Program-made: the position numbers and the translations under genes
In this document: piece by piece, positions 2,953 to 5,097 of the stretch
How the letters are laid out: every line of letters starts with the position of its first letter
How positions within the stretch are numbered: position 1 is the stretch's first letter
Notes under the pieces: generated by a model
Databases searched by the model: none
What the model was told of the DNA's origin: nothing
The model's input: the letters and a program-made list of their open reading frames with translations, nothing else
Assembly: GCA_023511485.1 (NCBI GenBank)
Contig: JAIMBH010000005.1
Span: 1-64,000 of the forward strand
Reading direction: 5' to 3'
Length of the DNA stretch: 64,000 nucleotides
From: Bacillota bacterium
Lineage (GTDB): Bacteria; Actinomycetota; Aquicultoria; Aquicultorales; Aquicultoraceae

Positions 2953-3120
2953 ATGAGAAAGACAACGATTGAACTCACCGAGGAACAGTATTTTTACCTT
3001 CAGGAGAAGGTGCTGGAGCTCAAGAAGAAAAACGAAAGCGTGTCTATGGCATCTCTGATCAGAGATTTGATTGAAAAAGACAGGCAGGCTTCCACGAAAA
3101 AAGGGAAGGCTGGAAAATGA
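2953..3120 (+). CDS. Small ribbon-helix-helix-like protein (55 aa)
   Basis: ATG at 2953 follows GGAGGAG with good spacing. The protein begins MRKTTIELTEEQYFYLQEKV and continues with SVSMASLIRDLIEKDR. This is the beta-strand-helix-helix pattern of short CopG/Arc-type repressors: a TTIELTEEQ strand, then a helix ending in SMASLIRDLI. Its TGA overlaps the recombinase ATG (ATGA), so the two are translationally coupled. The likely role is to repress or modulate excision and recombinase expression. The fold assignment comes from pattern only. Confidence 0.7.
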   Translation: MRKTTIELTEEQYFYLQEKVLELKKKNESVSMASLIRDLIEKDRQASTKKGKAGK

Positions 3121-4889
3121 AGAAGTGCGGCTTTGTTATCCGGGTGAGCACGGACAGGCAGGCAAAGAATAAGGAAGGCTCCCTCAAAAACCAGCTTCAA
3201 AGACTACGGGCTCATGTGGAATATAAAAATGTGGCCTGCGGGGAGCAGTGGGTTGAGGTTGAGAGGTATATCCTCAAGGCAGTATCCGGCAAAGACTCCT
3301 TCCGAAGCAAAGAATTTGCAAGGCTCTTTGAAGATATCCGAATAGGAAAAATCAATACTGTTATCTGCACTGCCCTGGATAGGATCAGTCGGTCCGTCAA
3401 GGACTTTCTCAACTTCTTTGAAATCTTAAACAAATACAATGTGGAGTTTGTCTGTCTCAAGCAGAACTACGATACCACCTCCTCCCAGGGAAAGCTCTTT
3501 ATAACCATCATGATGGCATTGGCGGAGTTTGAGAGGGAGCAGACATCGGAGAGAAACAAAGACGCAACTATGGCAAGGGCGGAAAGGGGGCTGTGGAACG
3601 GCGGGCAACTCCTGGGATATGATTTAGACCCCAATAGGAAGGGATACCTTATCCCCAACGAGAAAGAAAAGGCACTTGTCAACTTCGCCTATGATACCTA
3701 CCTGCAATGCGGCTCAATCCTTGAGACCGCAAAGATAATGAACAAACACGGCTACAGGACGAAGGAATACACCTCACGGAGAGACAAATTTCACCCTGCC
3801 GAGGAGTTTTGCTACTCCTCTGTCCAGCACATATTGACAAACTATGCCTATATAGGAAAGAAGGAGATCAACAAGAAGAAAAGGACTGAGGATCAGGAAA
3901 AGCTCCCGGAGAGTGAGCGGTATCGGATTGTGGATGCCGTCTGGGAGCCGATTGTAGATGAGGAAAAGTTTTATAGCGTGCAGGCTCTCCTAAAGAAAAA
4001 CTGCGTCTCGAAACACAACGAGGCAAAGCCTGTCAAACATAACTACATCCTAAACGGTGGGCTTCTCTGGTGCGGGAAGTGCGGGAAGGAGATGGAGGGG
4101 CGCTCTGGAACCGGGGCCAGGGGTGTGAGGTATTATTACTACATCTGCAAGAACAAAGAATGCAAGTTCAAGGTGCCTGCCGCTGAAATCGAGGGAGTTG
4201 TCCTAAAAAGGATTAGAGAGCTCTCCACCAAAAAAGACATCATGGAGAGCATCATTAAATCCACCAACGAAAAATTGCAGAAGGAACTCCCGGAGTTGAA
4301 AGAGCAAAAAACACTCCTCCAGAAGGAGCTTACGGAGATCAAGAATTTTGCCGATGGCATTATGAATAAGTGGGCATCCCTGGCAAGCGAGGACAGCAGT
4401 CTTTTCCTCAAAGACAAGCTGGATCAGTTAGGCAAAAGAAGAAAAGAGATTGAGACTGGCATCCAGGCATTAGAAGAGATGATCGAGGAAATAGAAAAGG
4501 AGTCCGTCACTCAAGAATTAGTGATGCTTGCCTTGAATAAATTTACGGATGTCTTTGATCACATCCGGCCTTATCAACAGAAGGAACTCTTGAGCCTCGT
4601 CCTCCATAAGGCCATCCTTGCCCCGGACAGCATAAAAATAGCCCTATACGGGCGTCCACCCGAAATAGGGCTACTTTCTTTATGTGAATCTGAGATACGC
4701 TCTCAGACACCAATCTGGCTCCCCGGGCAGGATTCGAACCTGCAACCCTCCGGTTACAATTGCCTCCGAATTTCTTCGGAGATTGGACTATATCATCTTC
4801 CGGCATTGATCTTGTATCAACCCACCAGCCGGAAGTCGGGCGCTTCCCCTAATGCATTCCAAGCATTAGAGTACTCCCTTGCGGGATAG
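3117..4889 (+). CDS. Large serine recombinase (site-specific integrase)
   Basis: The 590-aa protein starts with a resolvase domain, FVIRVSTDRQ, with nucleophile Ser11, and later TALDRISRSVKDF and QGKLFITIMMALAEFEREQTSER. A recombinase DNA-binding domain follows (about 160-300). Next come a zinc ribbon near 315-350 (CGKCGKEM, then CKNKEC) and a coiled-coil segment rich in K, E and L (about 370-500). This is the standard large serine integrase layout. From about residue 534 the frame reads antisense through the tRNA-Asn 3' exon (WLPGQDSNLQPSGYN) and into its intron. The last 57 residues are therefore host sequence acquired at the integration junction, and the native C-terminus probably ends near residue 530. 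It drives integration and excision of the element to its left. Confidence 0.93.
   Translation: MKKCGFVIRVSTDRQAKNKEGSLKNQLQRLRAHVEYKNVACGEQWVEVERYILKAVSGKDSFRSKEFARLFEDIRIGKINTVICTALDRISRSVKDFLNFFEILNKYNVEFVCLKQNYDTTSSQGKLFITIMMALAEFEREQTSERNKDATMARAERGLWNGGQLLGYDLDPNRKGYLIPNEKEKALVNFAYDTYLQCGSILETAKIMNKHGYRTKEYTSRRDKFHPAEEFCYSSVQHILTNYAYIGKKEINKKKRTEDQEKLPESERYRIVDAVWEPIVDEEKFYSVQALLKKNCVSKHNEAKPVKHNYILNGGLLWCGKCGKEMEGRSGTGARGVRYYYYICKNKECKFKVPAAEIEGVVLKRIRELSTKKDIMESIIKSTNEKLQKELPELKEQKTLLQKELTEIKNFADGIMNKWASLASEDSSLFLKDKLDQLGKRRKEIETGIQALEEMIEEIEKESVTQELVMLALNKFTDVFDHIRPYQQKELLSLVLHKAILAPDSIKIALYGRPPEIGLLSLCESEIRSQTPIWLPGQDSNLQPSGYNCLRISSEIGLYHLPALILYQPTSRKSGASPNAFQALEYSLAG
4716..4756 (-). 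other. Probable attachment site: 3' exon of tRNA-Asn at the element boundary
   Basis: The recombinase coding sequence runs straight into the last 41 nt of the tRNA-Asn gene. This is the arrangement expected where an element has recombined into a tRNA 3' end and restored the gene. The crossover core must lie within or beside this segment. The partner site is outside the window, so the exact core cannot be set. Confidence 0.5.
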
Positions 4890-5020
4890 TCTCTGCACCT
4901 TCCTCAATCCATAGATTGAGGCTTGGCTCAGGATTGCCTTACACCTTGCGGTAATCAGGTTCCCCTGAATTCACCCGATTTTTCAACCACAGTTACCTGT
5001 GGAAGCTGCAACTTTACTTT
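4757..5020 (-). ncRNA. Group I self-splicing intron (IC3-like, 264 nt, no ORF)
   Basis: Conserved core elements read in order on the minus strand. P is at about 4972-4955 (AATTCAGGGGAACCTG). Q is at 4938-4920 (GGCAATCCTGAGCCAAG). R is at 4901-4883 (AAGGTGCAGAGACTATCCC). S is at 4799-4785 (AAGATGATATAGTCC). P1 forms between exon GGCUGU and intron GCAGCU, with the required U.G wobble at the 5' splice site. Perfect hairpins fit P2 (CCACAG/CTGTGG), P6 (CCTCAAT/ATTGAGG), P8 (CTAATGC/GCATTAG) and a terminal P9 (CTCCGAA/TTCGGAG). The size and Q/R sequences resemble tRNA-Leu(UAA)-type IC3 introns. No homing endonuclease is encoded. Confidence 0.94.
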
Positions 5021-5097
5021 ACAGCCGGATGCTCTACCGTTGAGCTACCGAGGAATAGTCAATTTTCATGTCAGTGCACCAAACGCGCACTTTTAGC

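Follow-up and report, generated by a model that had tools for sequence, protein, structure and literature searches.

A group I intron splits the anticodon of the sole tRNA-Asn(GUU) gene in an Aquicultoraceae genome

Group I introns in bacterial tRNA genes are described in reviews for the tRNAs for Leu, fMet, Ile and Arg, mainly in cyanobacteria and proteobacteria (PMC8450103, PMC4033280, PMC3984707), and their main insertion site is 37/38 (PMC4033280). Such introns explained the missing fMet or Ile2 gene of 36 genomes in one survey (PMC8450103), and Thiomargarita carries them in its tRNAs for Arg and Leu. Group I introns in tmRNA genes are known from 21 phyla, mostly without an endonuclease gene (PMC11915505), and all 39 archaeal group I introns of Nawrocki et al. 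(2018, PMC6125680) lie in rRNA genes. A 2014 review placed all phage introns in protein genes and listed archaea as having none (PMC3984707). In the openly accessible literature we met no paper that names bacterial tRNA-Asn as a host of group I introns or describes position 35/36; a 2025 preprint by Nakagawa et al., whose title speaks of a “novel insertion site” in tRNAs of Patescibacteria, may be prior art for this site. A group I intron in a tRNA gene is therefore of a known kind, and the more interesting result reported here is its distribution at position 35/36 of tRNA-Asn.

Anatomy and fold of the split gene

We analyzed a 64,000-nucleotide stretch of DNA (the window), in which a tRNA-Asn(GUU) gene on the reverse strand (4716–5054) comprises a 34-nt 5′ exon, a 264-nt intron and a 41-nt 3′ exon (Table 1). 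Read from 5054 to 4716, the gene opens with TCCTCGGTAGCTCAACGGTAGAGCATCCGGCTGT, continues for 264 nt and closes with TAACCGGAGGGTTGCAGGTTCGAATCCTGCCCGGGGAGCCA. Run without introns, ARAGORN reported zero tRNAs in the window; with introns of up to 400 nt allowed, it returned tRNA-Asn(gtt) at c[4716,5054] and placed at position 35 an intron of 264 nt, i(35,264), whose removal restores exactly a cloverleaf with an intact GUU anticodon. The intron-tolerant search gave 0 matches in 20 dinucleotide shuffles of the window. The Rfam model RF00028 (Intron_gpI; cut-off 50 bits) matches 4764–5030 on the reverse strand with 98.3 bits (E 3.3e-24) and at full length (model positions 1–253 of 253). The first-pass annotation had read a complete cloverleaf with exons of 34 and 41 nt and an insertion after U35 from the letters alone, and had named a covariance-model search and an intron-tolerant tRNA search as checks; both were run, and both bear it out. 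No endonuclease gene lies inside the 264-nt intron. The CCA end is encoded in the window copy (4716–4718) and is not encoded in the copy of either congener (L051, L052).

Table 1. Features of the interrupted tRNA-Asn gene, in window coordinates
Feature	Position	Strand	Description and basis
tRNA-Asn 5′ exon, 34 nt	5021–5054	-	Ends ...GGCUGU, last base U35 of the anticodon; ARAGORN with introns, sequence reading
Group I intron, 264 nt	4757–5020	-	Final G at 4757; RF00028, ARAGORN, covariation on 52 relatives
tRNA-Asn 3′ exon, 41 nt	4716–4756	-	Starts U36 A37 A38; G73; encoded CCA; ARAGORN, sequence
P1 exon strand GCUGU	5021–5025	-	U35 pairs with G as U.G; structure, pair counts
P1 internal guide sequence GCAGC	5005–5009	-	GCAG invariant in 52 introns
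P3 5′ strand	4972–4978	-	Pairs with 4836–4842; 97.5% of cells pair; double changes in 4 pairs
P3 3′ strand	4836–4842	-	Alignment pair counts
P4 5′ strand	4963–4968	-	Pairs with 4928–4933; alignment pair counts
P4 3′ strand	4928–4933	-	Alignment pair counts
P7 5′ strand GACUA	4887–4891	-	Pairs with UAGUC, guanosine-binding helix; invariant in alignment
P7 3′ strand UAGUC (S element)	4786–4790	-	Alignment
Extra hairpins P7.1, P7.2 between P7 and P3	4847–4886	-	In window and some relatives, missing in others; weakly paired across the set
P9.0 5′ side	4783–4784	-	Pairs with 4758–4759, sets 3′ splice site; 52 of 52 paired
P9.0 3′ side	4758–4759	-	Immediately before terminal G 4757

The intron structure was read from the window sequence and scored, without fitting, on an alignment of 52 introns with their splice-site flanks. 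Pairs form in 90.2% of pair cells, compared with 69.5% in shuffles and 32–46% in slid versions, while cells with changes on both sides number 745 (230 in shuffles) and the covariation score is 0.480 (0.139 shuffled). Compensatory changes occur in P2, P3, P4, P6, P6a, P9 and P9.0; P7 and four P1 pairs never vary and are uninformative for covariation because they are invariant, and P7.1, P7.2 and distal P8 are not common to all 52 introns. The window intron contains the conserved P3–P8 and P4–P6 core with P7, and the P, Q, R and S motifs, the U.G pair in P1 and the terminal G listed in the first reading are all present in the sequence and alignment. Its J7/3 region bears extra hairpins. The assignment, made with the general Rfam model, is to group I as a whole rather than to a subgroup such as IC3.

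Both splice sites are defined by comparison. The U35.G wobble at the 5′ splice site is found in 52 of 52 introns, and a natural empty site exists in one genome (G025), which has an uninterrupted ...GGCTGTTAACC... and the same 3′ exon as the intron carriers G014 and G029 of its genus; together, these fix the 5′ splice site. P9.0 pairs in every intron, using three and five standard pair types at its two positions, and this fixes the 3′ splice site. Among parsed Asn introns, exon 1 ends in CUGU and the intron in G in 120 of 120. In phage tRNA-Lys(UUU) introns, the exon sequence CUUU is matched by a GAAG or GGAG guide, as CUGU is by GCAG in tRNA-Asn; this paired change in guide and exon reads as an independent sign of a real P1. 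We looked in the alignment for P10, a pairing of exon 2 with the guide, and it was not evident.

In group I splicing, a guanosine bound in P7 attacks the 5′ splice site, and the exons are joined by a second attack, that of the 5′ exon 3′-OH on the bond after the terminal G. The precursor described here would fold so that the guide GCAG pairs with exon bases C32–U35, forming P1 with U35.G at the splice site. The P7-bound guanosine would attack the phosphate after U35. The freed 3′-OH of the 5′ exon would then attack beyond the terminal G, which P9.0 holds in place, to yield a 34+41-nt tRNA with an intact GUU anticodon. From the anatomy, covariation, sole-copy status and conservation we infer that the intron is catalytic and spliced in vivo. 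All of its core helices are complete, and self-splicing in vitro is known for small bacterial tRNA introns, making it unlikely that this intron is no longer self-sufficient and requires a host splicing protein, as some group I introns do (PMC3984707).

Dependence on the interrupted gene

The genome measures 2.37 Mb in 58 contigs and is rated 100% complete. A tRNA model search followed by ARAGORN listed tRNAs for the other amino acids and no second tRNA-Asn in the whole genome. With the joined 75-nt tRNA as query, the genome returned its own two exons at this locus and only distant tRNAs elsewhere, and a pattern for intact tRNA-Asn matched 16 other genomes of the class and none of the three in the genus. 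The suggestion of the first-pass annotation, that AAU/AAC decoding may depend on self-splicing unless a second tRNA-Asn exists, is supported by the tRNA model, ARAGORN, joined-tRNA and pattern searches, which show no second copy. Since the genome shows no other tRNA-Asn, all AAU/AAC decoding should depend on splicing of the interrupted one.

A pattern search of 36 genomes of the class found the interrupted form in 11, the intact form in 16 and both in 0 (Fisher p = 0.0006 for the two never co-occurring, a value that ignores relatedness); 9 of the 36 fit neither pattern, and the patterns may be too strict for them. Intact tRNA-Asn was also missing in 21 of 22 other intron-bearing genomes tested, the only one with both forms being an Elusimicrobia MAG (G410, locus L087). 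This MAG, the 58-contig state of the assembly and the similar failure to see some other tRNAs, such as Ala(UGC), would be compatible with the interrupted copy being a decayed tRNA-Asn and an intact copy lying hidden in an assembly gap. We judge this very improbable given the completeness rating, the presence of the intron form and absence of the intact form in all three genomes of the genus, the 21 other genomes in the same state, and an intact cloverleaf and ribozyme core that are more strongly constrained than the flank. An artefact of assembly or binning, which a metagenome-like assembly in 58 contigs and relatives that are mostly MAGs might suggest, is in practice refuted by independent assemblies from the genus, which share the structure and whose flanks are 74% identical, and we give it almost no weight in view also of the same structure in complete or cultured records (CP006914.1, CP070837.1, Microcoleus sp. 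FACHB-61 and Tychonema sp. LEGE 06208).

At the level of sequence, we therefore regard 4716–5054 as confirmed to hold a group I intron in the sole tRNA-Asn gene, which would be spliced. Should splicing be confirmed, carriers depend on a ribozyme to translate every AAU and AAC codon. The interruption also explains a “missing tRNA-Asn” in annotation, default ARAGORN being silent at this locus, and Microcoleus and Tychonema provide cultured test systems.

Three other features of the window and genome were recorded. A large serine recombinase (Resolvase, Recombinase and zinc ribbon domains) occupies 3117–4715 of the window, with a frame extending into the antisense of tRNA-Asn. Homology to the congeners stops at 4718, the tRNA 3′ end, so the region to its left may be an element integrated at tRNA-Asn; searches of the window and the genome gave no further copy of this 3′ end. 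The genome's second group I intron lies in 23S rRNA (G000:C50:4240–4547, L002) and adjoins a 212-aa open frame resembling a homing endonuclease. A selenocysteine-type tRNA (G000:C21:40225–40313, L046; RF01852, 57.4 bits) has the cysteine anticodon GCA and a long variable arm, and possibly reads UGC/UGU in an unusual way; contig C47 of the genome carries selA and selB together with a tRNA-Sec that scores higher.

Distribution, transfer and inheritance

Rfam group I matches in relatives identified tRNA-Asn introns in both congeners and more widely in the order, class and phylum. The 35/36 insertion in tRNA-Asn(GUU) is present in 3 of 3 genomes of the genus, 11 of 36 of the class and 14 of 396 sampled from the phylum. 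A pattern scan of GTDB contigs (13-nt spacer) gave at least 114 stretches, among which at least 99 further loci reassemble to tRNA-Asn(GUU) with an intron after U35, from about 15 bacterial phyla and Pacearchaeota. Among the matches listed (at least 99) are 33 from Patescibacteria, 11 from Omnitrophota, 7 from Nitrospirota, 7 from Acidobacteriota and Aminicenantia, 6 from Cyanobacteriota, 5 from Deltaproteobacteria, 3 from Elusimicrobiota and 3 from Pacearchaeota, plus others; this grouping follows record titles, and misbinning of MAGs is possible. Representative cases were confirmed by Rfam. Asparagine, which the first reading had called unusual as a host, is by these counts not unusual, archaea included. 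The proviso “to my knowledge” in that reading was fair with respect to the textbook list, as this tRNA-Asn insertion is missing from accessible reviews and tRNA surveys.

In several relatives ARAGORN shifted the splice site and so labeled the gene tRNA-Thr, Ser or Tyr; the CUGU/G rule gives Asn in all of them. Parsed matches with introns above 900 nt or a poor exon 1 were discarded as wrong exon joins (e.g., L100, L145, L152, L176, L193, L205–L207), and one parsed match (L177) has the anticodon CAU. Two loci in the class of the window genome (L075, L078) are tRNA-fMet genes whose group I intron seems to follow U33 (33/34), a site other than that in Asn.

In Pacearchaeota, three tRNA-Asn(GUU) genes that are archaeal in type (G1) carry an intron at 35/36 (L082, 1884–2214; L084, 894–1389; L192, 5249–5811). 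The L082 intron is group I by Rfam (83 bits), those of L084 and L192 fall below the Rfam cut-off, and that of L192 contains an HNH open frame. All three genes come after the universal archaeal KH protein gene (arCOG04150), with aIF2-beta nearby in two, so the three cases are not stray bacterial contigs. In IMG/VR contigs (L194–L217), short group I introns of about 200 nt interrupt phage tRNA-Asn and tRNA-Lys(UUU) genes in dense tRNA arrays, and one of these contigs (L202) has at least 2 additional Rfam intron matches.

Introns longer than 420 nt make up 28 of 120, and in most of them an open frame of about 110 aa, bearing HNH-type motifs, lies upstream of the guide sequence; this frame matches PHROGs strongly (phrog_2255 HNH, E 4.5e-30) and Pfam HNH only marginally. 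Presence at this one conserved site is patchy among genomes of the class and phylum, with intron-less relatives. The intron tree clusters partly by phylum, and its starred branches force several changes involving Patescibacteria (at least 3), Nitrospirota, Acidobacteriota, Planctomycetota and phages, consistent with a history that mixes inheritance and transfer. In the same tree the window copy and those of its two congeners form a firm group. Intron and splice-site flanks are 86–89% identical to the congeners, compared with about 74% for an alignment that includes the neighboring gene, which argues that the window intron is kept by selection though it has no endonuclease gene of its own.

These data suggest a family that would spread between lineages at 35/36, its longer members homing by means of an HNH endonuclease whose gene lies in the P1 loop, while the window copy, without that gene, would now be inherited within the genus. 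Taken together, we are highly confident that at this locus a functional group I intron separates U35 from U36 in the sole tRNA-Asn(GUU) gene, and that it belongs to a family that spreads between lineages, the window copy being inherited within the genus. For a broader proposal we see the case as evenly balanced: that tRNA-Asn(GUU) 35/36 is among the most widespread and uncatalogued homes of tRNA group I introns, occupied by one family with HNH in P1 across about 15 bacterial phyla, Pacearchaeota and phage arrays, shifted to tRNA-Lys(UUU) by compensatory guide change, and with most hosts dependent on it for their sole tRNA-Asn.

Comparison with known systems

Like the known anticodon-loop introns of bacterial tRNAs, the window intron is a small group I ribozyme in a single-copy tRNA gene, with U.G at the 5′ splice site and a terminal G; it differs in its host, tRNA-Asn(GUU), in its site, 35/36, in its GCAG guide for the exon sequence CUGU and in its extra P7.1 and P7.2. 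With tmRNA introns (PMC11915505) the family shares an essential, tRNA-like, single-copy host gene and a spread over many phyla, and tmRNA introns mostly lack an endonuclease gene; theirs lie in the T-loop with LAGLIDADG genes, whereas in this family the site is the anticodon and the longer members have HNH genes. By its title, the preprint of Nakagawa et al. deals with new tRNA intron site(s) in Patescibacteria, the group that holds 33 of the tRNA-Asn introns among the matches listed here (at least 99). The archaeal group I introns of PMC6125680 are in rRNA, whereas three Pacearchaeota have an intron in tRNA-Asn, one of them group I by Rfam. The present set places a group I intron in archaeal and phage tRNA genes, where accessible papers report none.
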